Shown here: positions 7,572-25,559 of the stretch, piece by piece | Layout of the letters: each line of letters starts with the position of its first letter | Position numbering within the stretch: the stretch's first letter is position 1 | IMG/VR virus record: IMGVR_UViG_3300028920_000722 | Coordinates: 1 to 31,895 of that record | DNA length: 31,895 nucleotides | Origin: a virus | Strand: one strand, 5' to 3' | Program-made: the position numbers and the translations under genes | The notes under the pieces: model-generated | What the model saw: the letters and a program-made list of their open reading frames with translations, nothing else | Told to the model about the DNA's origin: nothing | The model's database searches: none

Positions 7572-7586
7572 CTTATAAAAAGTATA

Positions 7587-9036: not shown

Positions 9037-9810
9037 CTATTCCACTCTCCGCATTTTAAACTTGTTTTTGCTTTCCCTTAAACTATGAGATAATTTCTCA
9101 GTACCCCACTCATCAGCCACTACGCTTATATTCCTGCCGCCTATTACCTCTTTAGGCTGTGATAATATCCAATCACAGCAATCTAATACTTTATCCATTG
9201 GAGTACACCTATCACTTGCCAGCTGCTCTACTGTTCTTTTGTAATCTTGGCCTGCGCGTTCTTTGGCCTTTAGTGTAGAGTCATGTATCTTAGTCTTTAC
9301 CCAGCCAGGGCCTACTATTGTAAATGCTGTATCAGGTATCTCAAGAGCAAGTAGTTCTGTCATCCTCACTAAAGCCACCTTAGATGCTGTATAAGCTGAG
9401 TAATACTTTGTAGCCCTGTTCATGCTGCCGCCTGCAAATAATAATACTCTTGCTCTCTTGCTGCGGGAAGGCAGAAGCGCGTGAAGTATTCTCATTTGAT
9501 TAGTAAAGTTTATAGTGATAGACTCAGCCCAGTCATCAAAGTTATGATCCTGAAATAAACCTACCGGCTCTTGAGTACCCGGACACATTGCTAATATATC
9601 CCAGTTGTTACCAATTCTTTTAAGTTCATCTGTTGCCCACATAACGCTTTCATCATCAGATAGATCACAGCTGATTAAATTAGCATTCAGCTTGTCTATG
9701 TTTTTATTAGGTGTTCTATATGTACCTGTTATCTCATAGCCTCTCTTTTGCCAGCGCTTGGCTAAAGCTGCGCCTATATCACTTGATATTGATATTATTA
9801 TAGCCTTCAT
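9037..9810 (-). CDS. SDR-family NAD(P)-dependent oxidoreductase
   Basis: 257 residues from ATG 9810, chosen because it overlaps the upstream stop as ATGA; three earlier in-frame ATGs lie inside the upstream gene. Short-chain dehydrogenase features: a nucleotide-binding start IIISISSDIGAALA (degenerate form of TGxxxGIG), an acidic CDLSDD near residue 48, the CPG of the NAG region at 76-78, and a catalytic Ser129, Tyr140, Lys144 (YTASK). It would oxidise or reduce a hydroxyl or keto group, plausibly on a sugar nucleotide given the surrounding glycan genes. It is the last enzyme of the island. The substrate is unknown. Confidence 0.85.
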   Translation of the reverse strand: MKAIIISISSDIGAALAKRWQKRGYEITGTYRTPNKNIDKLNANLISCDLSDDESVMWATDELKRIGNNWDILAMCPGTQEPVGLFQDHNFDDWAESITINFTNQMRILHALLPSRSKRARVLLFAGGSMNRATKYYSAYTASKVALVRMTELLALEIPDTAFTIVGPGWVKTKIHDSTLKAKERAGQDYKRTVEQLASDRCTPMDKVLDCCDWILSQPKEVIGGRNISVVADEWGTEKLSHSLRESKNKFKMRRVE

Positions 9811-10730
9811 CTTAACCATCCGCATCTGTTGCACGCAGCAACTGTTCCTTGTTTTTTTATAGTATCTTTAAAGCGCAAAGCCTGCTTGCTCTGTATAATA
9901 CGCTTTAACGCACGCCTTTTGACATTACCCCATGATACTGCAAGGCATGGAAAAACCTCGCCATCTGAGTTTATATGTACGCTTGAGAATGCAAACTTAC
10001 AGGGCTTATAACGCTTAGGGTTATGATCTGCATCATTGATAAATATCTTAGGGTGCATAAACACTTGGCCCTTCAGGCGCTTGATGGCTTTTTTGGTATC
10101 TTCATTGTAAACATGCGCCTTGCTGGGCTTGAATATATCATCAAAGGCTACCATTGTATCTGAATGCTGGATGGGAGATCCTTTTAATAATTGCAGGGTA
10201 TGAGTATCAACACCTATATCCATATACTCTTTATGTATGCTCATTAGATCCTGATCATCTACAACTGTAGTCTTGGCATCTAAGATAGCATCTGATTTTC
10301 TCTTGTTGCGCTGTGCTATAAAGTATCGCATCATCTTTTCATTCTTGATTGATAGGCTAAGTACCTTAAAGCGGGTAAATGATAGCATGAGGTCTATAAG
10401 ATCAGTAGTAAGTAAGGTGCCATTTGTAATAATGTTACAGTCAAAGCGGCCTGCTGTTATGGCAAATATATCCTTAAAGTCTTTATATACCAATGGCTCA
10501 CCACCTGTTAATGTTACCCTGGCATATCTTGGCAGCTGGTTTAATACCTTTATCCAATCTGCCTTAGTCATGGTATCTTTATGATCTCTTGATTGATAGC
10601 AGTATGGGCAGTTAAGATTGCACTTTGTGGTAAGTATAAATACATATCTATCCGGCATAAGAGTAGGATCTTGGTATGCCTGCTCTGTGAATATCTCATG
10701 TTTTAAGTGAAATGCCTGCTTTAAGTTCAT
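9807..10730 (-). CDS. radical SAM protein with C-terminal Cys cluster
   Basis: 307 residues. The [4Fe-4S]-SAM motif is CNLNCPYC (Cys37, 41, 44), followed by the SAM-contact TLTGGEPLVY. The C-terminal part has CKFAFSSVHINSDGEVFPC and a final CNRCGW, the layout of a reduced SPASM/twitch auxiliary-cluster domain. It would generate a 5'-deoxyadenosyl radical; the substrate is unknown. It is joined by ATGA overlaps to the membrane glycosyltransferase upstream and the SDR downstream, so the three are probably co-translated. A role in modifying a sugar or small peptide is inference only. Confidence 0.88.
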   Translation of the reverse strand: MNLKQAFHLKHEIFTEQAYQDPTLMPDRYVFILTTKCNLNCPYCYQSRDHKDTMTKADWIKVLNQLPRYARVTLTGGEPLVYKDFKDIFAITAGRFDCNIITNGTLLTTDLIDLMLSFTRFKVLSLSIKNEKMMRYFIAQRNKRKSDAILDAKTTVVDDQDLMSIHKEYMDIGVDTHTLQLLKGSPIQHSDTMVAFDDIFKPSKAHVYNEDTKKAIKRLKGQVFMHPKIFINDADHNPKRYKPCKFAFSSVHINSDGEVFPCLAVSWGNVKRRALKRIIQSKQALRFKDTIKKQGTVAACNRCGWLR

Positions 10731-12034
10731 ATCAGTAAGTGATACTTTCCTCTCTTGTAATTGTTTATAAGCACCTCGGCTGTTTTCTCCTGGCCCGGTA
10801 TTATGTTAGCCTCAGCCATCTTCATATACTCTAAGCTCTCACCATCTCTTTTTAAAAACTTTAGCACTATGGCTATATTATAAAGTATCTTAAACTCTTT
10901 AGGTGAAAGCATCTTGGCCATTACCCACATGTTAAGCGCTTCCCGGTATGATTGCTGCTGCCACCTTTTATGCGCCCTGATATACCATACAAACCAAGCT
11001 GCCGGATCTTCAGTTACAGAATGCTCTATCAACCAATAGTCATCTGTGTATGCCGGGATATATATCATAAGCCTTGCTACATATATGCCAAACACAAAGC
11101 AGTACACAGGAAATGGCAGTATATTAGCCAGCGCAAACATAACGCCTATGTTAGCTATGTAGCAATAGCGCTCAGCTATCTCCTGTTGCATGCGGAATAA
11201 GTTTAAGTATGGGGCTATAGCGCATGAGTACCAGAATATGCCCCAGCTTATGGGAGTCCAATTAAATATAGCTGAGTATAACAAATACCCTATCAAGCTA
11301 AGGCCCAGCCAGAAGCACCAATCAAGCCTGATAGCCTTCTTTTTCATAATATCATTGCCGCCACCAGCACCACTCTGCATGAAAGCATGGTAAAATGTAA
11401 GCGTAAATGGCACTACACATAAGCCAAAGTAGAAGCCATAGATCTTAATAGCTATGATGAGCTTCTCCCAGCTTAGCTTCCTATCAAACGCTACTGTTTC
11501 ATTACCCCTGCGGCTTGTTACCTCTGTCTTTAAATGCTTATAATGTATAAACCATACTATCGGCAAAAAGAATATCAGATACCACCTCGCAGATCCTATA
11601 AATCCAAATGGCGCAAAGAATGCTGTAGGGTGTACAGTAGCCGCTATCATAGCAAAGGGAGCGCTCCATACGCAGGTCATTGACATCATCATAAACAGCC
11701 CGCACCATGCATAGTGCCGGCCTGAGATCCATACAGTAGCTTGATTGTTCACCGGGTTAGCTGCAAACAATAGCGCTGCCATGAATGATATATCATTAGC
11801 ACCTAACGCAGTATATATAAAGCATGCGCATACAGCATGCACTATTATACTAAGTAAATGGTCATACTTAGGTTTACCTGATGGTGATGATTGCCAGATG
11901 GCTTCATCCTTGCCTGTTTTCTTATCTACCCTTCTGCGCTCTGCCGGTAGATCATCTGATACATACCCGCATCTTGTAGCGCGTGCATATATCAATACTG
12001 TGGTAGCAAGTATGATTATTATCTTCCAAGCCAT
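10727..12034 (-). CDS. TMTC-like multi-membrane glycosyltransferase with TPR-like tail
   Basis: 435 residues with roughly eight to ten hydrophobic helices. Two features point to the TMTC/GT-C group: an early luminal-type acidic pair in GYVSDDLP (Asp27-Asp28) after the first helix, and NPVNNQATVWISGR (about 93-106), close to the bacterial HPV-x-x-E-A-V-x-WISGR signature. The last ~90 residues are soluble and helical with TPR-like spacing (AHKRWQQQSYREALNMWVMA, then LYNIAIVLKF). Relatives move sugars from polyprenyl-phosphate donors to proteins or glycans on the outer face of the membrane. In phage genomes such a protein is unusual. The GT2 polyprenol-type enzyme in the same operon could supply its donor. 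Confidence 0.62.
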   Translation of the reverse strand: MAWKIIIILATTVLIYARATRCGYVSDDLPAERRRVDKKTGKDEAIWQSSPSGKPKYDHLLSIIVHAVCACFIYTALGANDISFMAALLFAANPVNNQATVWISGRHYAWCGLFMMMSMTCVWSAPFAMIAATVHPTAFFAPFGFIGSARWYLIFFLPIVWFIHYKHLKTEVTSRRGNETVAFDRKLSWEKLIIAIKIYGFYFGLCVVPFTLTFYHAFMQSGAGGGNDIMKKKAIRLDWCFWLGLSLIGYLLYSAIFNWTPISWGIFWYSCAIAPYLNLFRMQQEIAERYCYIANIGVMFALANILPFPVYCFVFGIYVARLMIYIPAYTDDYWLIEHSVTEDPAAWFVWYIRAHKRWQQQSYREALNMWVMAKMLSPKEFKILYNIAIVLKFLKRDGESLEYMKMAEANIIPGQEKTAEVLINNYKRGKYHLLI

Positions 12035-12984
12035 GATTTAATTCCTCTCCAAATGTATCTTATATCATCTATGCTTCTTATATCAATAATTTTATTTATC
12101 CAAAAGTCCGGGTAAAATCCTGCATGATATATGCGCTTGATGTATTTCTTGTGGGCCTTATCGCCATCTTTCATCAGCTGTGGCCTGTAGAATGAGGCTT
12201 GGGCTGTCTTAGCAAAGCCTTTGCGCAATAAGAATTGTACTACCTTTAATGTATGCTCTGCATCTTGATCTGTTTCCCAGGGATAGCCAAACATTACTGC
12301 TATGTGAGGCTCAAGGCCATAGCTGCTGGCTTTGACAAGCTCATCTAAGGCATCATTTACATTGATACCTTTGTTTATTCTATCTAATGTAAATTGATTT
12401 GCGCTCTCTAAGCCATATAATAGCATCCTAAATCCTGAGTATTTTAAACATAGAAAATCATTATCTTTTAAAGTGCCAAATCGCATGTTACAGCTAAAGG
12501 TTATATCTAAGGGCCTAAGCTGCCTGCAAAACTCTAAGCGCCAATCGCCTGCCGGGAATGTATCTGAGTCATCAAATATCTCTCTAAAGCCTAAGCGCTT
12601 GCACTCTGCTATCTCTGCTATTACATCCTTTACCGGCCTTACCTCATACTTCTTGCCCTTCTCTACACAAAACTCACACTTACCCCACCAGCAGCCAGAC
12701 GCGGCCATAATATGAGTACCCGGTAGGTGCTTATAATTACCGCTGGTGTATTCCTTAGCATAGGTAAACACTCTGTCTGGCTGTGGCAAACTTAAAAATG
12801 GTAGGCCTTCTGGCTCTACTATCTGTCTATCAACACTTTCAGGAGCGGCTTCATCCCAATATACTGTATGGCCCATATTGCGATACCATTGTGCTTCCAT
12901 AGCCATCCTGACCGGATAGATCTTGGCCTTCTTTTCATGCTGGCGCTGTTGGGAATAGTAATGTGGCTTGTATAATATTTTCAT
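12019..12984 (-). CDS. radical SAM protein with CX4CX2C motif
   Basis: 321 residues. The likely cluster motif is GCWWGKCEFC (Cys98, 103, 106), i.e. CX4CX2C rather than the usual CX3CX2C. The following segments are typical of B12-type radical SAM cores (IFDDSDTFP, LLYGLESANQFTLDRINKG, IAVMFGYPWET), although the first ~90 residues are too short for a full cobalamin domain. The glutamate in YGLES and the GYPWET loop match Elp3-like TIM-barrel positions. It could act on sugars or lipids. It overlaps the methyltransferase upstream (ATGA) and the membrane glycosyltransferase downstream (16 nt). Confidence 0.85.
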   Translation of the reverse strand: MKILYKPHYYSQQRQHEKKAKIYPVRMAMEAQWYRNMGHTVYWDEAAPESVDRQIVEPEGLPFLSLPQPDRVFTYAKEYTSGNYKHLPGTHIMAASGCWWGKCEFCVEKGKKYEVRPVKDVIAEIAECKRLGFREIFDDSDTFPAGDWRLEFCRQLRPLDITFSCNMRFGTLKDNDFLCLKYSGFRMLLYGLESANQFTLDRINKGINVNDALDELVKASSYGLEPHIAVMFGYPWETDQDAEHTLKVVQFLLRKGFAKTAQASFYRPQLMKDGDKAHKKYIKRIYHAGFYPDFWINKIIDIRSIDDIRYIWRGIKSWLGR

Positions 12985-13511
12985 TTCTTAATACCCTTCC
13001 ATATCACTTCCCGGCATTGTATGGCCGGGCAAAATAGGTTCTCAAATACTCTTGGCGTAACTATGGCTATTATAAACCTTATACATATATCCATTATTTT
13101 TATAGGCCCATGCATCCACTCAGGCACATTGCCTTCTGCATCTATCTCCTCATACCACCAGCGCAGATCCTGCTCTACTGTCTTAAAGCCCTTAATATAA
13201 TCCTTAAAAGCATTATAACTATAAGTCCTATAATGCTCAAGGCAACCTACGCTTGTTACGCAGGAAGCATGCGGGCCTACTATGCGCAGGAAGCCACCGG
13301 GCTTTAATATCCTTTTGCACTCATCTACAAAGGCCCTTTGGTCTTTTATATGCTCCATGATATGTGAAGCATGTATGCCATCAACGCTATTATCTTCCCA
13401 GGGCCAGGGAAACTTTGACAAATCCACTACCATATCGCCCCGGCCTGCCTTTATATCTACATTGACAGCCTCTATGTATTTCTTTTTACCGCTTCCTAAA
13501 TTGAGTATCAA
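12981..13511 (-). CDS. class-I SAM methyltransferase (type 11-like)
   Basis: 176 residues. Motif I is ILNLGSGKK at the extreme N-terminus, followed by VNVDIKAG (acidic end of strand 2), HIMEHIKD (post-II region) and ILKPGGFLRIV (motif IV/V), the order of Methyltransf_11 enzymes. The C-terminal third has a hydrophobic stretch (ICIRFIIAIVTP) that may bind a lipid or membrane. It is coupled by ATGA overlaps on both sides. It would methylate a glycan or sugar precursor by context. The N-terminal cap is short for the family, so the protein may be trimmed. Confidence 0.85.
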   Translation of the reverse strand: MILNLGSGKKKYIEAVNVDIKAGRGDMVVDLSKFPWPWEDNSVDGIHASHIMEHIKDQRAFVDECKRILKPGGFLRIVGPHASCVTSVGCLEHYRTYSYNAFKDYIKGFKTVEQDLRWWYEEIDAEGNVPEWMHGPIKIMDICIRFIIAIVTPRVFENLFCPAIQCREVIWKGIKK

Positions 13512-14548
13512 GCGAACTCCTTATGTTCTACATCTAAGTATTCTATAAGCATCCTATTGCCGGCATCTATCACACAATGGTGATTGCAATGCTTTGAAGG
13601 ATCTATCTTATAAAACTTTTGCCGGCCATTAAACCAAAAGTCTTTGAAACTCTGATCCTTTATACTACCTAATAAGCCTGTATCTTTGTTGTAGGCTTTA
13701 TCATGGCAGGTATATACATTACAATCTGCTCCTATGATAGGCACTATCTGTATGTAAGGACACCAATGGTAATTCTTTTGAAAGCCCTCAAGCTGTAAGT
13801 GATAAGAATTATATATCTCAATTCCCTCTGCTCTTACCTTAGCCACCTGCTCTATGGCAGTACCTAATAAATCTTGATGGTATTCATTGTTTTCCCGGCC
13901 CTTATTGCTGATAATACAAGGTGATACTTTGATAGATTTTATGCCTAAATCATGCACCATCTTTACCATATCATACACATGATCGGCATTTTTCCTATCT
14001 ATTATTATATTTACACCTACTACACAATCCCCTGTATATGTAGATATAGAGGCTAAATTAGCCATTAAAGTATCAAAATCTGCCTCTTTACAGCGCCTAT
14101 ACTCGCTATAACTCTTTCTATCCCAGCCATCCATGGATATTCTTATCCATGAGCAGGCTTTTAAGGCGCTCTCTGCTATCTTGTCTTTAAGCAATACGCC
14201 ATTAGTAAGCAGAGCTGATTTAACATTTGTTGAGCCTACAAAGTCCAGCACTCTATCTATGCCCGGATATACTAATGGCTCTCCACCACCTGAGAATATA
14301 ACAGCCTTAACGCCCATGTTATCGCAGTCTGCTATTACTTCCATTAGCTTATCAGCCGGCATGCTATCCTGCTTTTCCATATCTTTGCCCAGCTGGCCAT
14401 AGCTGTTCTGGTATGAGCAGTATGAGCAGTTATGATTGCATCTGTTAGTAGGCTTTATCCTTACATTTACCGGTGCTGATACCTCGCCTGTCTTAAAACT
14501 ATCCAGCTTATCCCTGTGATGGAATATCTTTAATTTTGAATAATACAT
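13508..14548 (-). CDS. radical SAM/SPASM-domain protein
   Basis: 346 residues. Core motif CNHNCSYC (Cys37, 41, 44), then IFSGGGEPLVYP for SAM contact. The C-terminal region has CPYIQIVPIIGADCNVYTC followed by SFKDFWF and a CNHHC pair, matching a SPASM domain that carries auxiliary [4Fe-4S] clusters. SPASM proteins modify peptides, sugars or aminoglycosides by radical dehydrogenation or coupling. The surrounding methyltransferases and glycosyltransferases favour a carbohydrate substrate, but this is not proven. SD GGGGAG precedes ATG 14548; the stop overlaps the next methyltransferase (ATGA). Confidence 0.9.
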   Translation of the reverse strand: MYYSKLKIFHHRDKLDSFKTGEVSAPVNVRIKPTNRCNHNCSYCSYQNSYGQLGKDMEKQDSMPADKLMEVIADCDNMGVKAVIFSGGGEPLVYPGIDRVLDFVGSTNVKSALLTNGVLLKDKIAESALKACSWIRISMDGWDRKSYSEYRRCKEADFDTLMANLASISTYTGDCVVGVNIIIDRKNADHVYDMVKMVHDLGIKSIKVSPCIISNKGRENNEYHQDLLGTAIEQVAKVRAEGIEIYNSYHLQLEGFQKNYHWCPYIQIVPIIGADCNVYTCHDKAYNKDTGLLGSIKDQSFKDFWFNGRQKFYKIDPSKHCNHHCVIDAGNRMLIEYLDVEHKEFA

Positions 14549-14557
14549 TTTCTCCCC

Positions 14558-15178
14558 TTATTTAAAAAACAGAAACTCATAATCTCCTGTATATCCCCAC
14601 TCCTTGAATAAAAACTGCCATTCTCTTGGCATGAAAAACTGCTCGCATGTTAAGCCCCAGCATTGCAGGTTAAACAGCTCCCGGATATTGCGATAGCTAT
14701 CTATTGTGATATAGCTGTTAGTAGCTGCAAGCTCAAAGTATTGCAGTATAGTCTTTAAATCCTTTAGCTTTAGGTTATGTACAGTACCTAAAGATACTAT
14801 CAAATCAAAGGTCTGCCTTGGATCAGGCTTTACTATTGGCACAACAGCATTCTTTAGGGCATAGCCTGACACATCATAGCCATAACATTTACAGCCTACT
14901 ACATCCTGAAGCTCTTTTATTAAAAAACCCTTAGCGCATCCATAGTCAAGTACCTCTGATTTCTTGGTGAGCTTGTATCTCTTGGCTAATGCCTCTGCTA
15001 CCTGCTTAAACCTGCCATCATAGCGGTAGCCACCATATCCAAATCTGCGCTCTCCATCAAAAAACTCTTTACCAAACTTCCGGGCTACCCTCATGCACTT
15101 TACTTTTTCATTTACCATCCTACCTAAATAATCTCTGCTGGTACTGTGATGCAACTTGCTTATTATATCAACTTTCAC
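14558..15178 (-). CDS. class-I SAM methyltransferase (sugar/glycan type)
   Basis: 206 residues, start GTG 15178 (GTGA overlap with the upstream stop; SD AAGGAG 8 nt away). An N-terminal segment RRFGYGGYRYDGRFKQVAEAL precedes motif I VLDYGCAKGFL, then YGYDVSGYAL and the FDLIVSLGTVHNL region. This arrangement, with the Gly/Tyr-rich lead-in, recurs in methyltransferases of surface-polysaccharide and sugar-modification clusters. The C-terminal half is aromatic-rich. It probably methylates a sugar or its nucleotide precursor; the position of methylation cannot be told from sequence. Confidence 0.85.
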   Translation of the reverse strand: MKVDIISKLHHSTSRDYLGRMVNEKVKCMRVARKFGKEFFDGERRFGYGGYRYDGRFKQVAEALAKRYKLTKKSEVLDYGCAKGFLIKELQDVVGCKCYGYDVSGYALKNAVVPIVKPDPRQTFDLIVSLGTVHNLKLKDLKTILQYFELAATNSYITIDSYRNIRELFNLQCWGLTCEQFFMPREWQFLFKEWGYTGDYEFLFFK

Positions 15179-15318
15179 TTCTTTATCTCCTTAAAGTTTA
15201 TACAATTTTCGCATTTGTGTTTATGCCTATTTTCCAAAAACTTTCTGTGTTCCTTATCTTCCTCTTTCATTACTAAAATAAAAAAAATAATTATAAACAG
15301 TATAAATAGTATAGTCAT
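15175..15318 (-). CDS. 47-residue membrane-anchored CxxC peptide
   Basis: ATG 15318 with SD AAGGAG at 5 nt spacing opens 47 codons whose TGA overlaps the following GTG start. The first ~16 residues are a hydrophobic helix (TILFILFIIIFFILV), and the rest is charged with HKCENC near the C-terminus. It looks like a single-pass membrane peptide with a metal-binding or redox CxxC. It lies between the GIY-YIG gene and a methyltransferase in the same coupled operon. I recognise no family. Confidence 0.58.
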   Translation of the reverse strand: MTILFILFIIIFFILVMKEEDKEHRKFLENRHKHKCENCINFKEIKK

Positions 15319-15328
15319 AGCTTCTCCT

Positions 15329-15622
15329 TCAAGTATAGTTAAAAATACCTGGTGTTACTTTGTTGTACTCTGGTTTTAATATATTATGGAAATCTATTTC
15401 GGCTTGTTGGTAATCATTTGTTTCGTGTATATATATTTTTAACTTATTGTTTATTCTTGCTCTATGTATTGCAAAATAAGCATCTTTATTTATAGAGTCA
15501 AAAAAATACCTACCTGTTGACTTGTAAAAATATTTTGCTATACGCTCTTTTAAGTTTTTAGATCTGCCAACATATAAACATCTATCCCCATCAAAGAATG
15601 CATAAACTCCACACTGCTTCAT
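15329..15622 (-). CDS. GIY-YIG nuclease-domain protein
   Basis: 97 residues, essentially one GIY-YIG domain. It has GVY at residues 5-7, YVG at 17-19, the arginine helix SKNLKERIAKYF, and the catalytic-position glutamate Glu75 in the YQQAEIDFHN helix ending in LKPEYN. Stand-alone domains of this size occur as homing endonucleases in phages and as UvrC-like nucleases. It sits inside the glycan operon, overlapping the upstream glycosyltransferase by ATGA, so it has adapted to the operon rather than interrupting a gene. It may have mobilised neighbouring cassettes. Confidence 0.85.
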   Translation of the reverse strand: MKQCGVYAFFDGDRCLYVGRSKNLKERIAKYFYKSTGRYFFDSINKDAYFAIHRARINNKLKIYIHETNDYQQAEIDFHNILKPEYNKVTPGIFNYT

Positions 15623-17944: not shown

Positions 17945-18636
17945 CTTAGTTTATATATTATCCCTCTTACCAGCAATAAGAATATCAGCTTTAAAGTCAT
18001 TGCAGGATGCCTTAGCAGTATCTTCCACTTACCGCGCTCTGTAAATACAGTCCAGCATCTATACTTAAAGTCAAGTACTTTCGCTTGCGGATGCTTCTTT
18101 TTAAATCTATCCATGCTCTTAGAATAATATGCCTTTTTCTTAATATAATTCTTGAAAGATACATCATCCATGTGGTATAATGGATTTTTGGCTATAACCT
18201 TTAGCCCTTTTATCCTCAAATCCCAATCAGCATCTTCCGGGCCTGACATACTCTCATCAAACTTAGGGCAGTTATTGGCTCTTACAAACCTTACACAATC
18301 TACCAAAGTGCCTGTATAAAACTGCCTCTCAAAGTATCGCAGGCGTGTAAACCAATCATCTCCTACTATATGCTCGGGTATATATACACCTACTACATCA
18401 GGGTTATCTTCCATTATGCTGACACACTCCATTATTAGCTCCTGCGTAGGTACTTGATCGCTGTCTAATATAAATATATATCTGCCCTTAGCCTGCTCTA
18501 TTCCTATGTTGCGCTGGGCTGATCTCTCCATACCTACATCTATCTCAAGTATCTCAACACCTACCATATCGCCTATAGACTCTCTTATCTGCGATATATC
18601 CCGGCCATTATTAGGTATTACTACTGATACTCTCAT
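17941..18636 (-). CDS. GT2-like glycosyltransferase
   Basis: 231 residues. GT-A features: RVSVVIPNNGRD at the start, RSAQRNIGIEQAKGRYIFI, and ILDSDQVPTQ as the DXD-type site (Asp at the ends of DSD). A later MSGPEDADWDLRIKG matches the GPEDxDWxxR acceptor-side motif common in GT2 enzymes. The C-terminus has a hydrophobic helix (LIFLLLVRGIIY) that may anchor it at the inner membrane. It is joined by ATGA overlaps to the glycosyltransferase upstream and the B12 radical-SAM gene downstream. Donor and acceptor unknown. Confidence 0.88.
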   Translation of the reverse strand: MRVSVVIPNNGRDISQIRESIGDMVGVEILEIDVGMERSAQRNIGIEQAKGRYIFILDSDQVPTQELIMECVSIMEDNPDVVGVYIPEHIVGDDWFTRLRYFERQFYTGTLVDCVRFVRANNCPKFDESMSGPEDADWDLRIKGLKVIAKNPLYHMDDVSFKNYIKKKAYYSKSMDRFKKKHPQAKVLDFKYRCWTVFTERGKWKILLRHPAMTLKLIFLLLVRGIIYKLR

Positions 18637-19187
18637 AGCCCCATCCTTATCTTTATAGTATCTATTAGTGTTGATAGTATATCCTTAAAACTCTTGCCAT
18701 CCGATACTGTAGCATGTATAGGTATCTGCTGCATGGTCTTTTTGTCTTTTCTGGCTTTGTACAGTATCTCTATATCAAAGGCCCAGCCATCTGTTTTCCA
18801 CTCTGGCTTATAGTTAAAGCCTTTGATGCCGGTCTGGGTATCAACCTCTATTCTAAACAGCAGCCATATCCATATCCTTGATAAAAAGGTAAGCAGTTTC
18901 CTTTTTAGCTTCCTTGGCAGAGCCTTCCTGCCTACTACAATATCATACTCATTAAGATAAAATATTATCTTAAATATCTCTCTTGGCGGTATATCTCTAT
19001 CACCATCTATAAAGATATAGTAATCACCGGTAGCCTGCTCTAAGGCTTCTCTTATAGCATAGCCTTTGCCCTTGCCATAACGGTCATTGTATATCACTAT
19101 CTGAGCCGGGCCTATCTCCTGCTCTATCTCATTGACAAGATCATGTATCTTAGGCTCATTATATGATGGCACTATAACGCTTATCAT
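18633..19187 (-). CDS. GT2 polyprenyl-phosphate-type glycosyltransferase
   Basis: 184 residues from ATG 19187 (ATGA overlap with the transketolase fragment). SVIVPSYNEP, IVIYNDRYGKGKGYAIREAL and DYYIFIDGDRDIPP follow the Alg5/DPM1-like pattern, with DGD as metal site. VDTQTGIKGFN and WAFDIEILYKA match the TG-x-KGF and FD-x-E-x-L motifs of dolichyl/undecaprenyl-phosphate glucose or mannose synthases. A short basic hydrophobic segment near residue 100 (LLTFLSRIWIWLLF) suits a membrane interface. It would make a lipid-linked monosaccharide, a fitting donor for the TMTC-like enzyme at 10727-12034. Confidence 0.88.
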   Translation of the reverse strand: MISVIVPSYNEPKIHDLVNEIEQEIGPAQIVIYNDRYGKGKGYAIREALEQATGDYYIFIDGDRDIPPREIFKIIFYLNEYDIVVGRKALPRKLKRKLLTFLSRIWIWLLFRIEVDTQTGIKGFNYKPEWKTDGWAFDIEILYKARKDKKTMQQIPIHATVSDGKSFKDILSTLIDTIKIRMGL

Positions 19188-19636
19188 ACTCTTATATACC
19201 CCGGTTTTAGGCTGTTTATCCAAATATCAAACTCTTTGCCATTATATACAGGCATCTTAATTGCATTCATAACAGCTATATCATCCTCATATACACAATG
19301 GCAATCTCCTAAGCCTTTGAAAAAATCACCCACTCCATTACCTATTATCTTAACATTTCTATTCATAAGCACTACATCATTTCGGATCTGCTCTAAGCCT
19401 TTAAATGCTATGAAGCTGGCTATGGAATATATTATAGGCTTTAGTCCTGCCTGGGCCATGCCTGCTGCTATGCCTACTGTAGCCTGCTCCATTATACCGC
19501 AGTTAATAACCCTATTAGGATATTGCTTCATAAGCATATCTATCTTAGCAAACCCGCAGTCGCATACCAAAAGATAATATCTCTTATCCTCAAATATATC
19601 TACTAAGTTATCTATAATGGTATTTCTATCTACCAT
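19184..19636 (-). CDS. transketolase-like Pyr domain, pair 1 (short C-half)
   Basis: 150 residues from ATG 19636 (SD AGGTG, overlapping the N-half stop by 11 nt). It contains the thiamine-pyrimidine-binding domain: RVINCGIMEQATVGIAAGMA with the conserved Glu50, PIIYSIASFIAFKGLEQIRND, and a GVGDFFKGLGDCHCVYEDD loop. Typical split transketolase C-halves are near 300 residues; this one stops after the Pyr domain and lacks the C-terminal regulatory-like domain present in pair 2. With the adjacent N-half it should form a two-carbon ketol transferase or a relative acting on a sugar. Confidence 0.83.
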   Translation of the reverse strand: MVDRNTIIDNLVDIFEDKRYYLLVCDCGFAKIDMLMKQYPNRVINCGIMEQATVGIAAGMAQAGLKPIIYSIASFIAFKGLEQIRNDVVLMNRNVKIIGNGVGDFFKGLGDCHCVYEDDIAVMNAIKMPVYNGKEFDIWINSLKPGYIRV

Positions 19637-20306
19637 CAGGACACCTGAAGTGCCACTCGGCCCTGTTTTCCATATATGGCACACCCTTTCCTTTTGTAGT
19701 AGTAGCAACCAAAATCATAGGCTTTGAGTCAAGCCACCTGTATAATTGCTTATGGTCATGGCCATCACAATGATAAACCATAAAACCCCAGCCCTTAAAT
19801 CTATGGAATATATTTTGGTATAATATCTTATCAACATAATCCATAGCTTGTAAGCCATTATCATCTACTATAACACTTATATTAGTTAATTGGTGGTGAT
19901 ACATAAAACTTAATGCTTCCCAATTAGAGCCTTCCTGAAGTTCGCCATCACCTACTATTACCCATGTATGATTATCGTTGCCTAATTTCTTATTAGCATA
20001 AGCTACCCCCACCGCTACCGGTAGCCCATGGCCTAATGATCCATACCCATCTACACAGCCGGGCATATCAAAGTTCTCCCATTTCTTCTTAGCAAGTAAG
20101 CCCAGATCTGCCCATATAGCATAAAGGCCATAACATCCATGGCCTTTAGATAATATAATTGTATCTTGCGGTTTTGCTACTTTATAATGCAATACTGTTA
20201 ATATATCAAGGCATGATAAAGATGGCGCTATATGGCCCTGCTTATTCCTTGTGGCTACCCTTACAACCTCAGCCCTTAGCTTGTCTGCCTTTACTACTGT
20301 GTTCAC
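19626..20306 (-). CDS. transketolase-like N-half, pair 1 (ThDP diphosphate domain)
   Basis: 226 residues, start GTG 20306 (TAGTG overlap, SD AGGAG). It holds the PP domain: IILSKGHGCYGLYAIWADLG, LGHGLPVAVGVAYA, and the thiamine diphosphate motif VGDGELQEGSNWEA (GDG at 119-121) ending at VDDN (Asn150) for Mg2+ and diphosphate. GKGVPYMENRAEWHF near the end matches the transketolase loop GKGV-x-x-MEN-x-x-WH. At 226 residues it is somewhat shorter than usual (about 270). It lies directly upstream of its short C-half. Confidence 0.88.
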   Translation of the reverse strand: MNTVVKADKLRAEVVRVATRNKQGHIAPSLSCLDILTVLHYKVAKPQDTIILSKGHGCYGLYAIWADLGLLAKKKWENFDMPGCVDGYGSLGHGLPVAVGVAYANKKLGNDNHTWVIVGDGELQEGSNWEALSFMYHHQLTNISVIVDDNGLQAMDYVDKILYQNIFHRFKGWGFMVYHCDGHDHKQLYRWLDSKPMILVATTTKGKGVPYMENRAEWHFRCPDGR

Positions 20307-20683
20307 TATCTACTCCTGTGTTGCACCTTAAACTCGCGCCAACCCATTTCAGTAAGTCGGTTCAATTCGTTTTTGTATTCTACTCGCTTACTATTAAAGT
20401 TCCTAACCTCTATCATCATCTTCTTAACATCTTCTGCACTCATATCCTCACCACGCCTGAAAGCATTTTCTCTATTCCATACCTCAAAGTTCATCTGAGC
20501 AATCCTTATGATACAAGCCAGCAGCGCACCTGATAGTTTAATGTTTAACTTATCAATTCCCTCTGATAAGGTAGTATGCTCCTTGTATGCTCCTTCTTCT
20601 CCAAAAAATATCTTCCTGCTGAGAATAGTCAGCCTATCAATTACATCCCCCACGGACATATCAATATTAGTTTTATTTTTCAT
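20306..20683 (-). CDS. DUF6165-like protein
   Basis: 125 residues. The pattern SVGDVIDRLTILSRKI at the start and NFEVWNRENAFRRGEDMS in the middle, then FNSKRVEYKNELNRL, resembles DUF6165-type proteins (G-E-x-x-DK-x-TIL-x-x-K, then N-x-x-LW-x-x-E-x-x-R), found in lipopolysaccharide and sugar-modification loci. No catalytic residues can be assigned. It is tightly placed between the HNH-like gene (11-nt overlap) and the transketolase N-half (1-nt overlap). SD GGGGG precedes ATG 20683. The family link is from pattern memory. Confidence 0.55.
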   Translation of the reverse strand: MKNKTNIDMSVGDVIDRLTILSRKIFFGEEGAYKEHTTLSEGIDKLNIKLSGALLACIIRIAQMNFEVWNRENAFRRGEDMSAEDVKKMMIEVRNFNSKRVEYKNELNRLTEMGWREFKVQHRSR

Positions 20684-21056
20684 TGTTCCCCCATTTTAAT
20701 TGCATTGCCCTTTTCATTGACTTACTGATATTATTTTTCCATTCCTGCGTAAGCGGTCCTCTCTTATTTCCTATTTTGTCCTTACGACTATTCTCGCTTT
20801 TTTCTATGAACCTACAATTCCCTAAAACATAATCGCCATTGTTGTCTATCCTATCTATGCTTGGTTGATTAAGACGATAAGCTCTATCTCTCGCCCATAA
20901 ATAAGCTACATCTTCAAGGGTTAAGAAGTTTCTAATACCTTTATCAGCATATCTCCCATTCCGGCATCTCGCTACAATGTTATCATAACGCCTTTTCCAA
21001 GGGCGTGCTTCGTAATATCTTTTGTTATATCTTAATTTAGCTTCTGAAGTAATCAT
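20673..21056 (-). CDS. HNH-like endonuclease
   Basis: 127 residues. A central block SIDRIDNNGDYVLGNCRFIE (about 67-86) fits the D-R-I-D-x-x-G-x-Y-x-x-x-N-C-R form of phage HNH endonucleases, followed by SENSRKDK. The first motif residue is Arg instead of the classical His, a known variant pattern. The N-terminus is Tyr/Arg-rich and the C-terminus is a basic helix (LTQEWKNNISKSMKRAMQ) resembling a NUMOD-type DNA-binding element. It is likely a free-standing homing endonuclease lodged in the operon, with ATGA coupling to the upstream radical-SAM gene. Confidence 0.75.
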   Translation of the reverse strand: MITSEAKLRYNKRYYEARPWKRRYDNIVARCRNGRYADKGIRNFLTLEDVAYLWARDRAYRLNQPSIDRIDNNGDYVLGNCRFIEKSENSRKDKIGNKRGPLTQEWKNNISKSMKRAMQLKWGNNEK

Positions 21057-21877
21057 CTTATTTCCTTAATAGTTACAGAACACCAATTTTTTTCTTGAAA
21101 TCTATTAAACTTGAGCTTAATATCACAAGGATTGCAAAGCCCATAGTTATCACATGGCAGGTATGTAGTAGGTAGTTTAACATCCTTATCAAGTATATGC
21201 CCATAGGAATTGATGCCATGGTATAGATCATAATGGCATCTAAACAGCCTGCCATCTGGGGCTATCAGCATTTCACTTGGCTTACATAGGCACTTCTTGC
21301 GCTTCCCATTTACAGCATCTGGGTATTTATAAGTGCCATGCGTTTCATCTAAAAGTTCCTTCAGCCTAAAGTCTATGCCTAATCCCTTGCCCATAAGCAT
21401 TGCCCTTGCCACGCTGTAATTATTAGTATCAACAGCCCAAACGCCCACAGAATAGCCTGCCTTTTGCAATGAGCGCACATCACACAATAAATCTAATGCT
21501 TTCGTCTGGCCGGGATGAAAAGAAAATCTTATAGAAGCATACTTAGCTTCACGCTTAAATCTATAAGGGCCTATCTTATATCTAAACTGTTCTATATCAA
21601 ACTTACCATTTGTTAAAAGATCTAATGGCAGGTCTTTCCTTATGCCATCTATAAGCCTGTAAAACCCTCTATAAACTGTAGGCTCGCCACCTGTGATAGT
21701 AACCGGTAAGTCTGGCCTTGTCTTTATTCTGTTTAGGCCTTCAGCCCATTGCTCTGGACTCATCAGTTTATACTTATACAGACCATTGTATTTGTTGATA
21801 CAGTATGAGCATTTGAAGTTACAGGCAAATGTTAAGAATGCGCTGATATAGTTATAGCTTTTTGGAATATTGAGCAT
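21053..21877 (-). CDS. radical SAM protein with C-terminal Cys-rich domain
   Basis: 274 residues. The cluster motif is CNFKCSYC (Cys19, 23, 26), then VTITGGEPTVYRG. The C-terminal part has KKCLCKPSEMLIAPDGRLFRC and CDNYGLCNPCDIKLK, enough cysteines for at least one auxiliary [4Fe-4S] cluster. The short N-terminus (18 residues before the first Cys) suits a compact core. It overlaps the C-half of transketolase pair 2 by 26 nt and the HNH gene by ATGA. It might act on the product of the transketolase, but that is speculation from order. Confidence 0.88.
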   Translation of the reverse strand: MLNIPKSYNYISAFLTFACNFKCSYCINKYNGLYKYKLMSPEQWAEGLNRIKTRPDLPVTITGGEPTVYRGFYRLIDGIRKDLPLDLLTNGKFDIEQFRYKIGPYRFKREAKYASIRFSFHPGQTKALDLLCDVRSLQKAGYSVGVWAVDTNNYSVARAMLMGKGLGIDFRLKELLDETHGTYKYPDAVNGKRKKCLCKPSEMLIAPDGRLFRCHYDLYHGINSYGHILDKDVKLPTTYLPCDNYGLCNPCDIKLKFNRFQEKNWCSVTIKEIR

Positions 21878-22742
21878 TGATTTTCTTTCGTATATCTGCT
21901 TCTGTTAATCCTATGTGCTTGCATAGATCCTCATAACTTCCATACTCTCTTATAAATGTTTCTGGGATAGCCATGTTGCGGCATATAATATTATTGTTAC
22001 AGCTATGTAACACCTCATCCCCTAAGCCACCATATCTGCTGTGTTCCTCTACTACTAATACATTCTTTGTTTTTTGTATGCTTTGTGCTATTAGCTTACA
22101 ATCAAGGGGCTTTATAGTATGTATATATATAATCTCTACATCCTTTTTGCCTACTGCCTTTACTACATTATCCAGCTGGCCGCCTGTTACTATAACTGTC
22201 ATGCGGCTACCTTCCTTTACAAGCACACCGTTGCCTACTGTAGCATCCAGCTTTAAGCTATGGGATTTATTAGATAGCCTAAAATAGTTTATCTTATTAT
22301 TCTTATATACCTGCCTGAATAACTGATCAAACTCTTGCTTGCTACCTGGGCAGAATATATTTGTATTAGGTAGTGGCTTCAATAGCGCAAAGTCAGTATA
22401 GCAATGATGGGTAGCGCCTAATGTAGAGTAGTCAAATGCGCCACCTGTAGTTACTATGTTACAGCCAAGCTCCTGATGGGCCAGATCCAGCTTTATCTGC
22501 TCGTAACACTTCTCTACCACAAAAGGAGTCATGGAGTGTATAACCGGTATTAGACCTACCATTCTAAGGCCGGATGCCATTGTAGTCATGGTGTTCTCAC
22601 AGATGCCTACATTGTAGTACCTGCCGGGGCAAGCCTTAGCAAATGGCTCTAACCTGTAATGGCTAATATCTGCTGTTAAGACAACAAGGCTATTATCCTT
22701 TTTACCAATGCTTGTTACTGTCTTTACAAACTGCTCTCTCAT
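21852..22742 (-). CDS. transketolase-like C-half, pair 2
   Basis: 296 residues from ATG 22742 (ATGA overlap). The Pyr domain begins with LVVLTADISHYRL and holds YYNVGICENTMTTMASGLRM with the catalytic-position Glu49, then VIHSMTPFVVEKCYEQIKLD and GATHHCYTDFALLKPLPN. A transketolase C-terminal domain follows (MTVIVTGGQLDNVVKAVGKK, VLVVEEHSRYGGLGDEV). This is the full-length form, unlike pair 1. It should pair with the N-half at 23205-23969, although a methyltransferase gene separates them. Confidence 0.9.
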   Translation of the reverse strand: MREQFVKTVTSIGKKDNSLVVLTADISHYRLEPFAKACPGRYYNVGICENTMTTMASGLRMVGLIPVIHSMTPFVVEKCYEQIKLDLAHQELGCNIVTTGGAFDYSTLGATHHCYTDFALLKPLPNTNIFCPGSKQEFDQLFRQVYKNNKINYFRLSNKSHSLKLDATVGNGVLVKEGSRMTVIVTGGQLDNVVKAVGKKDVEIIYIHTIKPLDCKLIAQSIQKTKNVLVVEEHSRYGGLGDEVLHSCNNNIICRNMAIPETFIREYGSYEDLCKHIGLTEADIRKKINAQYSKKL

Positions 22743-23242
22743 TTTATAACCCACCAATCAACGCCCATAACATTAAGTTCCAATCCTTCCCTTTGTATAA
22801 ACTCATTAACAGCTTGCTCAACCCCGGGCTGTAGCGGCTCTTTATAGTCATGGCCTGCAAAGACTCCGCCCTTCTTAACCTTTGACCACCATAGATGTAA
22901 GTCCTGCTTTACTGACTCGTAATCATGGGCAGCATCTATATACACATAGTCTATTGACTCATCTGGTATATATTTATATGCTATATGCGTACCTGTAACA
23001 AACCACTCGCAAATACCCTTATAAGGTTCTAAGTTCTTATAGGCTTCCCGGTATCTTGCAACCGATTGTGTATATCCAATTATTTCTTTTTCAGTATTAT
23101 AGTCATCTACAAGATACATCTTGCTAATATTCATATTCGTTATCATATCTAAAGCATTAAGTCCTAAGTGTACGCCAAGCTCTGCCACTACTATTGCGCT
23201 ATCCTTATACTTTTCTTTTACGAATTGTGCTGAGTATCGCAT
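22739..23242 (-). CDS. class-I SAM methyltransferase (Methyltransf_24-like)
   Basis: 167 residues. Motif I is IVVAELGVHLGLNALDMI, with MYLVDDYN as strand-2 acid, then SIDYVYIDAAHDYESVKQDL and VKKGGVFAGHDY. The D-A-x-H-x-Y-E and G-G-x-x-x-x-H-D-Y elements are hallmarks of the Methyltransf_24/TylF-CmcI group, which binds a metal ion and often methylates sugars or macrolide hydroxyls. It is inserted between the two halves of transketolase pair 2, overlapping them by 38 and 4 nt. SD GAGG is somewhat distant from ATG 23242, so translation may rely on coupling. Confidence 0.85.
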   Translation of the reverse strand: MRYSAQFVKEKYKDSAIVVAELGVHLGLNALDMITNMNISKMYLVDDYNTEKEIIGYTQSVARYREAYKNLEPYKGICEWFVTGTHIAYKYIPDESIDYVYIDAAHDYESVKQDLHLWWSKVKKGGVFAGHDYKEPLQPGVEQAVNEFIQREGLELNVMGVDWWVIK

Positions 23243-23969
23243 CTATCTTTTTCCTCTCTTGCTTGTTTGGTACTTTATAATGCCACTTGCCATTGTTCTC
23301 CATGAAGCTAACACCTTTACCCTTTATGGTATCTGCTACAATTACTTTAGGCACGCCTGAGTCAATAGCGCATCTTCTGTATGCTTTGGCTATTCTTGCC
23401 TTATCATGGCCATCTATTCTATAGGCAAACCAACCAAAGGATTGCCATTTATCTTTCATGCTATACATAGGCAATACCTCGTATGAGGATTTGTTATTAT
23501 CTACTATTGCTATTAAATTACCTAATCGTAGATGGCTTGCCAATAAAGCTGCTTCCCATACAGTACCCTCATTACACTCGCCATCACCTAATAATACTAT
23601 TACTTTATTGTCTTTGCCCTGTATCTTTAAGCCCAGAGCTATGCCTAAGCCTATTGCTAAGCCATGGCCTAATGATCCTAAGCTGGCATCCACCCCTGGC
23701 ACAAGTAGCCTATCAGGATGCCCGCCTAAGATAGATCCGGGCTTACTCTTATTATCTAAGTCTTTTTGTGTAATAAAACCCTTATTCTTTAGAATAGCAT
23801 ATAAAGCAGCGCATCCATGGGCCTTAGATAGTATGAAATAATCCTTATCTTTACCCTTTAGCCTTATATTATCGTATATATATTCCATTATCTCTGCAAT
23901 AGAAAAGGCCGAAGGGATATGCCCCTCTCCGGCCTTACATACTATATCTAAAATGTCTTTTCTAATCAT
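23205..23969 (-). CDS. transketolase-like N-half, pair 2 (ThDP diphosphate domain)
   Basis: 254 residues from ATG 23969, two bases after the upstream stop; no clear SD, so it is probably translated by coupling. FILSKAHGCAALYAIL, SLGSLGHGLAIGLGIALG and VLLGDGECNEGTVWEA (GDG at 128-130) ending VDNN (Asn159) form the ThDP site. GKGVSFMENNGKWHY near the end is the transketolase loop. The size is normal for a split transketolase N-half. It is only moderately similar to pair 1, so the two pairs probably have different substrates. Confidence 0.9.
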   Translation of the reverse strand: MIRKDILDIVCKAGEGHIPSAFSIAEIMEYIYDNIRLKGKDKDYFILSKAHGCAALYAILKNKGFITQKDLDNKSKPGSILGGHPDRLLVPGVDASLGSLGHGLAIGLGIALGLKIQGKDNKVIVLLGDGECNEGTVWEAALLASHLRLGNLIAIVDNNKSSYEVLPMYSMKDKWQSFGWFAYRIDGHDKARIAKAYRRCAIDSGVPKVIVADTIKGKGVSFMENNGKWHYKVPNKQERKKIDAILSTIRKRKV

Positions 23970-23970
23970 A

Positions 23971-25137
23971 TCACACAAAGTTTAAATGTTCAGGCGGTTT
24001 CGCCATCAATTCCTCATACTTCTCCTTTGAGCCGCATAGCTTGTGTAGTGTTTCTTCTGTGTTGCCATTATATTCTTTTAAAAACTTATCCATGAATTGG
24101 TTAGTCATACAATGGCGGCATTGTCCTTCACATAAGTCTTTAAGCGGTATCTTAGAGATCTTCTCTATTACATCCCAATACCTGCGGCTATGTAGTATAT
24201 CCCAGAGCCTCTGCTTTGTTACATCTCCATAACAATACTCATCCTTGTTAAATAAGTACCCGCAAGGATAGCATTTGCCATTACCTGACATCTGAAATAA
24301 GAATGGCAGATCCACGCAATAGTCAAAATCCCACTTCTTTTCTCCTGTTATCTTCTTGGTATCTTCTATGGCCTTCCACTTAATTACTATCTTGGTCTTA
24401 TCTGTAGTCATAGCCTCTGCCTCTTTGAGTATATTTACCACTTCATCATACCTGTTCATATCAAAGTGCATAGGCATGCCTGATCCTGCATCTGAAAACT
24501 GCTTGATCTGTACATAATCTACCCCTAAATCTATGCCTAATTGGGCCATAGGTATTACCTGATCAAAGCATTGAGGCACTAATACCATCTGCATTCCTAT
24601 TGTACAGTTATCATTGTTTTTGGCAGCGTGTCCTATAATGCCCTTTAATCGCTGGAAATCGGCCTCTGTTGTGCCTTTGTGTATCTGAGGGTACTTATTA
24701 CCTACCGCAGATATATTAAAGCGTACCCATGTACAGTTTTTAGTAAGTATATCTGTCTTTTGCTTATCTAAAAGCAGGCCATTTGTAGCCACAGCACTCT
24801 CTACACCATGGTTAGTTAAGGCCTCTACAAAAGGATACAGGCCCTCATTTAAGGTAGGTTCTCCATCTCCTATTATTGCTACACCTTTTACACCGGCCCT
24901 ACCGGCATCCTGGGCTACCATCAATAGCCTATCTGTAGGTATATAATCCATAGATGGCTTCTGATATGTACCATAGCAGAATATACAGCGCATATTACAG
25001 CCTTTATGAATACCCATATCTATTGTGATAGGCATCTGATATTGGCCCTGTGTAAATTGTTCTAAGCGATCCTTGTACCATGCCAGCTTGCATGCATCAA
25101 ATAGGTACTTCTGCGGTGGTTGCTTTAAGTAGTCCAT
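23971..25137 (-). CDS. radical SAM/SPASM protein, first gene of the island
   Basis: 388 residues. The core motif is CNMRCIFC (Cys47, 51, 54), with AIIGDGEPTLNEG as SAM contact. The C-terminal SPASM-like domain runs from YCVDLPFLFQMSGNGKCYPC through YCYGDV to LCEGQCRHC, giving enough cysteines for auxiliary clusters. It is the promoter-proximal gene of the 16-kb operon, behind an AT-rich palindrome region and a good SD (AAGGAG). SPASM enzymes modify peptides or sugars; the surrounding transketolases and glycosyltransferases favour a sugar here. Confidence 0.9.
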   Translation of the reverse strand: MDYLKQPPQKYLFDACKLAWYKDRLEQFTQGQYQMPITIDMGIHKGCNMRCIFCYGTYQKPSMDYIPTDRLLMVAQDAGRAGVKGVAIIGDGEPTLNEGLYPFVEALTNHGVESAVATNGLLLDKQKTDILTKNCTWVRFNISAVGNKYPQIHKGTTEADFQRLKGIIGHAAKNNDNCTIGMQMVLVPQCFDQVIPMAQLGIDLGVDYVQIKQFSDAGSGMPMHFDMNRYDEVVNILKEAEAMTTDKTKIVIKWKAIEDTKKITGEKKWDFDYCVDLPFLFQMSGNGKCYPCGYLFNKDEYCYGDVTKQRLWDILHSRRYWDVIEKISKIPLKDLCEGQCRHCMTNQFMDKFLKEYNGNTEETLHKLCGSKEKYEELMAKPPEHLNFV

Positions 25138-25250: not shown

Positions 25251-25559
25251 TTATATAGTCCATTGATCATAGTTTTTTTCTATACCTAATACGCATTGTT
25301 TTCCATCTTTTGTGTAAAGTATAAGGCCAAGAAACTCCATTTGTGTCAATATGGTTTTTAATTCTTCTTCAGTAAGATTAAGAGCGCCTGCCATTGTGCT
25401 GTAATTAGTTATAGTTATCTTTTTATGAAAACCATAAGTATATCTTATAATATAAAGCATTATTCTTAAATAGTTAATATCTGATATTTTAATAATTAAA
25501 TGTTCTAATAACTCATGCGCTATTCTGGTATATCCATGCTCTATCTGCGGGCTTGCCAT
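25251..25559 (-). CDS. phage replication protein O-like winged helix
   Basis: 102 residues. SPQIEHGYTRIAHELLEHLI, then IMLYIIRYTYGFHKK and a C-terminal L-x-x-LGLI element match the N-terminal DNA-binding domain of lambda O-type proteins (S-P-Q-I-E-N-G-Y-T-R-I-A-N-E-L-L; I-I-R-x-T-Y-G-x-x-K). In lambda this domain binds origin iterons, and a C-terminal part recruits the helicase loader; that part is missing here. SD AAAGGAG precedes ATG 25559. It borders the AT-rich palindrome region, so it probably binds there. It could alternatively act as a transcription regulator. Confidence 0.85.
   Translation of the reverse strand: MASPQIEHGYTRIAHELLEHLIIKISDINYLRIMLYIIRYTYGFHKKITITNYSTMAGALNLTEEELKTILTQMEFLGLILYTKDGKQCVLGIEKNYDQWTI

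Follow-up and report, generated by a model that had tools for sequence, protein, structure and literature searches.

A putative envelope-glycan island built around a TMTC-like protein and a radical-SAM enzyme in an uncultured lineage of short-tailed phages

Surface-glycan genes as such are already known in phages, from gtrABC cassettes, cyanophage lipopolysaccharide (LPS) clusters and pelagimyophage cassettes. The gtrABC seroconversion cassettes of P22, epsilon34 and Shigella phages encode a polyprenyl-phosphate sugar synthase together with a membrane transferase, and for P22 an alteration of the host surface glycan has been proposed, as cited in a passage of PMC8787464. The cyanophages P-SSM2, S-SSM7 and S-SM2 carry clusters of many surface-polysaccharide genes (PMC2984593, PMC3037559); P-SSM2 has 24 LPS genes, which have been proposed to act against coinfection (PMC2984593). 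The hypervariable regions of pelagimyophages combine glycosyltransferases with radical-SAM (S-adenosylmethionine) cassettes (PMC7029224). Viruses of anoxic methane ecosystems carry O-antigen and glycosyltransferase genes, and one huge virus among them has 15 radical-SAM enzymes (PMC9723712). In this report, we describe an island of 22 open reading frames (ORFs) in IMGVR_UViG_3300028920_000722, a linear IMG/VR record of 31,895 bp from one metagenome assembly that was analysed whole and is called the window below. On sequence evidence, we consider it reasonably probable that the phage uses the island to modify glycans and so to remodel the envelope of the cell it infects, probably against superinfection.

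Like gtrABC, the island pairs a candidate polyprenyl-phosphate sugar synthase with a putative membrane transferase, but it comprises 22 ORFs against three, its transferase is TMTC-like with tetratricopeptide repeats (TPR), and it is proposed to make its own modified sugar; in addition, no GtrA-type flippase was recognised in the island (GtrA had no match among the Pfam-scanned proteins, a scan that did not include a 47-aa ORF), and no integrase in the window or in the near-complete relative G002. The first-pass annotation implied that such gene numbers are without precedent in a phage, which P-SSM2 contradicts. However, the cyanophage clusters sit in large myoviruses (S-SSM7 and P-SSM2 have 232-252 kb), few of which carry them, whereas the island provides a core set across a podovirus-type lineage of ~40 kb and joins radical-SAM to transketolase chemistry. 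Similarly, the pelagimyophage region is hypervariable and includes tail fibres, whereas the island occupies a fixed slot upstream of the terminase gene TerL with a conserved rSAM2-TMTC pair. A block in the podovirus ctQWt234 (MW202801, 19640-24303) with radical-SAM, glycosyltransferase, methyltransferase, PhyH and NodB-like genes is partly like the island, but it sits after the major capsid protein (MCP) gene, and its radical-SAM enzyme is 22% identical to rSAM6. Streptomyces Ppm1/Pmt O-mannosylation also uses a polyprenol-phosphate sugar synthase and an extracytoplasmic transferase, as proposed for the island, but it is host-encoded, transfers mannose and relies on another transferase family; its loss leads to phiC31 resistance, and such glycans thus matter to phages (PMC5982138).

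Gene content and lineage conservation of the island

The island runs on the minus strand throughout, its first ORF beginning at 25137 and its last finishing at 9037, and the overlap-coupled operon described in the first-pass annotation proved exact in these coordinates. Nineteen of the 21 gene junctions overlap by 1 to 83 nt, often as 4-nt stop/start overlaps, and the remaining two are gaps of 9-10 nt. Profile hidden Markov model (HMM) searches bore out the six radical-SAM enzymes, two split transketolases, three methyltransferases, three GT2 glycosyltransferases and one SDR oxidoreductase of that annotation. In the list below, short names of the type rSAM2 or GT2c were coined for this analysis, G numbers denote relatives of the window, and percentages are identities to orthologues, taken as BLASTP best hits on simple ORF calls with uncurated annotation.

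23971..25137, minus strand: rSAM6, radical SAM/SPASM-type enzyme, first island gene (Radical_SAM, E 5.7e-19)
23205..23978, minus strand: TKN2, N-half of split transketolase 2 (Transketolase_N, E 1.6e-31; thiamine diphosphate (ThDP) motif GDG...NN)
22739..23242, minus strand: MT3, methyltransferase (Methyltransf_24; weak TylF similarity)
21852..22757, minus strand: TKC2, C-half of split transketolase 2, Pyr plus C (Transket_pyr 9.9e-21; Transketolase_C 3.1e-17)
21053..21877, minus strand: rSAM5, radical SAM enzyme (Pfam; 65-68% in G002, G003)
20673..21056, minus strand: HNH-like ORF, a weak assignment (37% to an ORF of G003 that weakly matches I-HmuI NUMOD)
20306..20683, minus strand: small protein, earlier called DUF6165-like (sub-threshold DUF4254; 33-35% in G002, G003)
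19626..20306, minus strand: TKN1, N-half of split transketolase 1 (Pfam; 73-74% to G002, G003)
19184..19708, minus strand: TKC1, pyrimidine-binding domain of transketolase 1 (Transket_pyr 4.1e-9; GIMEQ motif; 65-71% to G002, G003)
18633..19223, minus strand: GT2c, polyprenyl-phosphate sugar synthase-like GT2 of the DPM1/GtrB/ArnC group (profile matches to PDB and NCBIfam)
17941..18636, minus strand: GT2b, glycosyltransferase (Pfam; 58-61% to G002, G003)
16478..17944, minus strand: B12-binding radical SAM enzyme (Radical_SAM 2.6e-27; B12-binding 3e-21; 69% in G002, not in G003)
15619..16506, minus strand: GT2a, glycosyltransferase (Pfam; 54-56% to G002, G003)
15329..15622, minus strand: GIY-YIG nuclease (PF01541 2.1e-5; third-position G+C, GC3, 0.22 against ~0.39 in its surroundings)
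15175..15318, minus strand: 47-aa membrane mini-protein with CxxC (ORF list)
14558..15178, minus strand: MT2, methyltransferase (Pfam; 69% to G003)
13508..14548, minus strand: rSAM3, radical SAM/SPASM-type enzyme (Pfam; 64% to G003)
12981..13511, minus strand: MT1, methyltransferase (Pfam; 56-62% to G002, G003, G004; 42% to G008)
12019..12984, minus strand: rSAM2, core radical SAM enzyme (Pfam; motif CWWGKCEFC)
10727..12034, minus strand: TMTC-like membrane protein with C-terminal TPR, core gene (SDD motif, model, 57 IMG/VR relatives)
9807..10730, minus strand: rSAM1, radical SAM/SPASM enzyme (Pfam)
9037..9834, minus strand: SDR oxidoreductase, last island gene (Pfam)

The GIY-YIG and HNH-like ORFs had been left out of the first-pass annotation; both probably encode homing endonucleases, a recent one in the GIY-YIG case. 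The DUF6165-like label of that annotation was not borne out.

Single-protein scans with TerL and with TKN2 found no relatives; capsid and portal scans of IMG/VR, based on closer alignments and on one portal sequence as query, brought up a clade of relatives. Radical-SAM genes occur in 10 and GT2 genes in 5 of the 23 relative records fetched. G002 (40,805 bp) has 12 syntenic orthologues directly upstream of TerL, at 54-74% identity (33% for the small protein called DUF6165), and G003 has 14 syntenic orthologues at 54-73% (35% for that protein and 37% for the HNH-like ORF), while gene maps of G004, G005, G008-G011 and G013 show at least rSAM2 and TMTC kept in the slot. A TMTC-profile scan of IMG/VR yielded 57 phage loci, with some near-duplicate records, so that the counts are not all independent: at 47 of 49 testable loci (IMG/VR plus one contig from a metagenome-assembled genome, MAG), TerL follows TMTC on the same strand at a distance of no more than 6 kb, and at 33 of 40 rSAM2 precedes it by no more than 3 kb. 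Among the loci that differ are L172 and L173, which lack TerL in the part fetched, and L152, L159, L173 and L179, which lack rSAM2. The first-pass annotation had named the lack of any other phage contig with this neighbourhood as a refutation; this was checked and did not refute it, as many contigs carry the neighbourhood. As a linear fragment of a single assembly, the window might in principle be a chimera of phage and bacterial DNA, but many IMG/VR records that were assembled separately, and one MAG contig, have the same joins, which contradicts this and leaves it a negligible chance; the island is native to the phage and not an artefact.

Among the 50,697 INPHARED records, TMTC had no match and rSAM2 one weak match. 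The radical-SAM, GT2 and transketolase families are absent from G012 (IMGVR_UViG_3300013120_000020), and the island is therefore not universal in the wider group. The last 30 nt of that record are repeated at its positions 90-119, a hint of a short terminal repeat. The mapped relatives contain no orthologue of SDR, rSAM1, TKN2, MT3 or TKC2. In place of the accessory enzymes of the window, relatives carry other surface-sugar enzymes in this slot, namely a DegT aminotransferase, dehydratases (GDP-mannose-4,6-dehydratase-like), epimerases and a GT4 glycosyltransferase. A fixed delivery core combined with exchanged sugar makers is as expected of surface-glycan diversification.

Between the window and G002/G003, the proportion of synonymous differences (pS) is 0.69-0.83, with synonymous sites saturated or nearly so, and that of non-synonymous differences (pN) amounts to 0.18-0.26 in the genes of the island and to 0.17-0.20 in capsid, portal and TerL. 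This indicates that purifying selection acts on the island as it does on the virion genes. Mantel correlations of pairwise distances are 0.90 for TMTC-portal and 0.86 for TMTC-capsid, with 0.83 for portal-capsid; rSAM2 tracks more weakly (0.51-0.57), and TerL tracks everything poorly (0.13-0.36), which means that the result does not hold evenly across the virion genes. Together, the conserved TerL/rSAM2 neighbourhood, the synteny, the Mantel tracking and the purifying selection argue that rSAM2, TMTC and a polyprenyl-phosphate-sugar-synthase-like GT2 form a core that is a gene set of the lineage, around which the sugar-building enzymes vary. Cyanophage LPS clusters were once considered possible stuffer DNA (PMC3037559), and the island might likewise be stuffer or freshly captured bacterial DNA, functionless in the phage. 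Non-synonymous divergence like that of virion genes alongside saturated or nearly saturated synonymous sites, synteny over divergent contigs and the TMTC-portal correlation contradict this for the core, so that we hold it to be very improbable; it would apply at most to the genes without mapped orthologues.

The same distances bear on virion glycosylation, in which tail fibres or capsid would be decorated instead of the host surface and which had been put forward as an equal alternative. TMTC distances match those of portal and MCP as tightly as the virion genes match one another, and the island borders on the packaging and virion module, both in the window and in most relatives; both points favour a virion role. 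However, vertical inheritance explains this co-evolution without one, and the presumed last transferase spans the membrane several times and has a polyprenyl-phosphate-type partner: such enzymes act beyond the cytoplasmic membrane, whereas tailed virions assemble in the cytoplasm. If the assignment of the terminal enzyme as an extracytoplasmic GT-C-type membrane protein holds, virion glycosylation is no longer an equal alternative to remodelling of the host envelope, and we regard it as rather unlikely.

Enzyme families and the proposed pathway

The best PDB matches of the GT2c profile (alignment A12) were DPMS 5mlz (E 2.8e-10), then GtrB sll0501 and ArnC, and its NCBIfam matches were AglJ, PgfS and ArnC, which places GT2c, at superfamily level, as a predicted member of the polyprenol-phosphate sugar synthases of GtrB type. 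In the TMTC-like family, the first hydrophobic helix is followed by an SDD motif (residues 26-28) that is at least 90% conserved in 41 sequences, and hydrophobic segments in a multi-span arrangement precede the C-terminal TPR_2 matches found in 18 of the 41. The AlphaFold model (predicted local distance difference test, pLDDT, 88.9) has a helical C-terminus. A GT-C-like layout and a putative extracytoplasmic transferase are suggested by these features; the TMTC-like designation of the first reading is therefore upheld by motifs and model and not by Pfam, with no DUF1736/TMTC domain in the 41 members. The pairing of a GT2c-type synthase with a GT-C-like membrane protein suggests that a lipid-linked sugar is transferred outside the membrane. 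Phage glycosyltransferases can also glycosylate DNA, as cited in a passage of PMC7029224, but for a sugar hypermodification of phage DNA neither a membrane transferase nor a polyprenyl-phosphate-type glycosyltransferase is expected, and no base-modifying enzyme was recognised among the proteins scanned; we give this explanation very little credence.

Radical-SAM domains scored above cut-off in six island proteins, one of which also has a B12-binding domain, and Pfam SPASM matches were found in two of the six, one of them below cut-off. The CX3CX2C motif is present in all but rSAM2, whose family (alignment A11) has CX4CX2C in 27 and CX7CX2C in 3 of 30 homologues, a spacing that is presumably like that of C-methyltransferases acting on ribosomally synthesized and post-translationally modified peptides (RiPPs). 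Because Pfam and the fold still recognise a radical-SAM domain, rSAM2 can be considered a variant of the superfamily. Its AlphaFold model (pLDDT 92.3) is closest in the PDB to the sugar diol dehydratase AprD4 (E 1.4e-12), followed by the methylase MgmA and by MiaB/RimO. The substrate of AprD4 is a sugar of paromamine, and the nearness of the model to this enzyme makes sugar chemistry plausible for rSAM2. With 65-69% identity to its G002 and G003 orthologues, rSAM6 is 31% identical to enzymes of bacterial sugar clusters; its profile matches SkfB, MoaA, BtrN and DesII in the PDB, and its bacterial homologues lie in nucleotide-sugar clusters with transketolase, methyltransferase and aminotransferase (pseC or DegT) genes. 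Cytosylglucuronate decarboxylase is among the PDB matches of rSAM3. Streptomyces phage SF3, which has an integrase, carries a B12-binding radical-SAM gene (11680-13179) beside thymidylate kinase and NUDIX genes.

Both island transketolases show the signature of a split enzyme, a ThDP-binding N-half with a GDG...N motif and an adjacent Pyr half: Pfam recognises Transketolase_N and Transket_pyr twice each, and Transketolase_C in TKC2 and not in TKC1, for which the true start is probably an ATG near 19633. A joint profile of TKN1 and TKN2 had as its best PDB match the split-chain transketolase 6yak (E 9e-59), which likewise has its N and C parts on separate polypeptides but differs from phage transketolase 1, in which no C-terminal domain was detected. 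Each of G002 and G003 has one Transketolase_N, aligning to TKN1, and no counterpart of TKN2 was seen there; among 24 records tested, transketolase is limited to the branch of the window, and the second pair occurs in the window alone. A literature search returned no papers on split transketolase, or on transketolase with radical SAM in O-antigen clusters.

We infer the substrates, the order of the steps, the acceptor and the purpose of the pathway as follows. The split transketolases, SDR, radical-SAM enzymes and methyltransferases would build or edit an unusual sugar from nucleotide-sugar or sugar-phosphate precursors of the host; GT2a and GT2b would elongate or decorate a cytoplasmic glycan; GT2c would load a sugar onto a polyprenyl-phosphate carrier; and the TMTC-like protein would transfer it, beyond the cytoplasmic membrane, to an acceptor in the envelope, either a surface polysaccharide or a protein. 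The altered surface would most likely stop competing phages from adsorbing. A sugar or glycan pathway within a phage genome, as first proposed, is thus retained, with a surface-glycan role as the best fit.

Several results weigh against this pathway. Foldseek searches of the TMTC-like model against PDB and BFVD gave weak, TPR-dominated matches and no GT-C fold, the GT-C assignment has no Pfam support, and no flippase or nucleotidyltransferase was recognised in the island. The near-complete G002 is without an integrase, so that classical lysogenic conversion is not established for its subclade; a tyrosine integrase is present in 3 of the 23 virus records tested, which makes lysogen conversion possible in part of the lineage, and lysogenic and lytic-phase use of the island are both possible. 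The SPASM radical-SAM enzymes mostly match NCBIfam models of peptide or cofactor maturases, far under cut-offs, which, like the motif spacing of rSAM2, would suit a small molecule or RiPP, secreted or cell-bound, that is matured by radical-SAM/SPASM enzymes and glycosylated by the transferases. Such a product is nevertheless improbable: no precursor peptide was recognised by eye among the ORFs of at least 45 aa, the sole 47-aa ORF being a membrane segment, the relatives exchange nucleotide-sugar enzymes and not RiPP genes, and the homologous radical-SAM genes are located in sugar clusters. Envelope remodelling therefore remains the reading we prefer.

Flanking modules, phage affiliation and host

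The main genes of the window are all on the minus strand, and the island lies between early-type and virion modules, as had been noted. On its 5' side are a tail fibre, small genes, a VRR-NUC-like nuclease, an RlpA-like lytic transglycosylase and a replication-O-like initiator; on its 3' side small genes are followed by TerL, GNAT, portal, scaffold, MCP and duplicated minor-capsid genes.

25251..25559, minus strand: replication protein O-like initiator, adjoining the island 5' (Phage_rep_O 1.9e-13; DnaD-like loader PHROG)
7542..7574, minus strand: terminator-like stem of 14 pairs between island and TerL (consensus match alone)
5744..7087, minus strand: TerL, first of the virion module (PHROG 3717, E 1.3e-41)
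3282..4970, minus strand: portal / head-tail adaptor (PHROG 332, E 1.1e-121)
1080..1928, minus strand: MCP (PHROG 3437, E 1.2e-58)

The terminator-like stem (7574-7542) may set the island apart from the late genes; promoter-like sites were not more frequent than in shuffles. The replication-O-like protein is short, at 102 aa, and the minor-capsid-like genes are tandem duplicates (1-489 and 529-1020). By sequence, portal and capsid group with HTVC010P-like short-tailed phages, with which the window shares 31-32% (portal) and 38% (MCP) identity and the order portal-scaffold-MCP. No DNA polymerase or integrase was recognised in the window, and its replication is therefore probably host-dependent. 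The ends of G002 lie in the family of the duplicated minor-capsid-like genes, and this points to a circularly permuted map of ~41 kb.

RlpA suggests a peptidoglycan-bearing host. A scan of GTDB for hosts or prophages gave a single match, a 40.8-kb contig (JAHFDG010000034.1) in a Methanoperedens MAG; we rejected it as host evidence, since its TerL, portal and MCP are those of this lineage, which marks it as a phage contig that was probably misbinned, and since RlpA points to a host with peptidoglycan. When 197 genomes of the Methanoperedens phylum were searched, almost all matches apart from this contig were TPR matches; one N-terminal match was to a 476-aa membrane protein, itself without a Pfam match.

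Implications for phage glycan systems

Phage glycan clusters are commonly regarded as accessory cargo whose function is doubtful; in the present case, a transferase and the radical-SAM enzyme paired with it appear to act as core genes of a widespread lineage while the sugar makers change. This core status is new, as are the rSAM2-TMTC pair, the CX4CX2C/CX7CX2C motif of rSAM2 and the extent of the chemistry based on radical-SAM enzymes and transketolases. Whether glycan clusters act in infection is now testable with a handful of genes. More tentatively, we suggest that in an uncultured short-tailed phage lineage a core radical-SAM and GT-C system, co-inherited with the capsid, would give each infection a phage-specific envelope glycan, and that the branch of the window, with two split transketolases and five more radical-SAM enzymes, would make a sugar not known from bacteria. 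rSAM2 represents a new subfamily of radical-SAM enzymes whose iron-sulphur motif is unusual, and the island is a possible source of new sugar chemistry.

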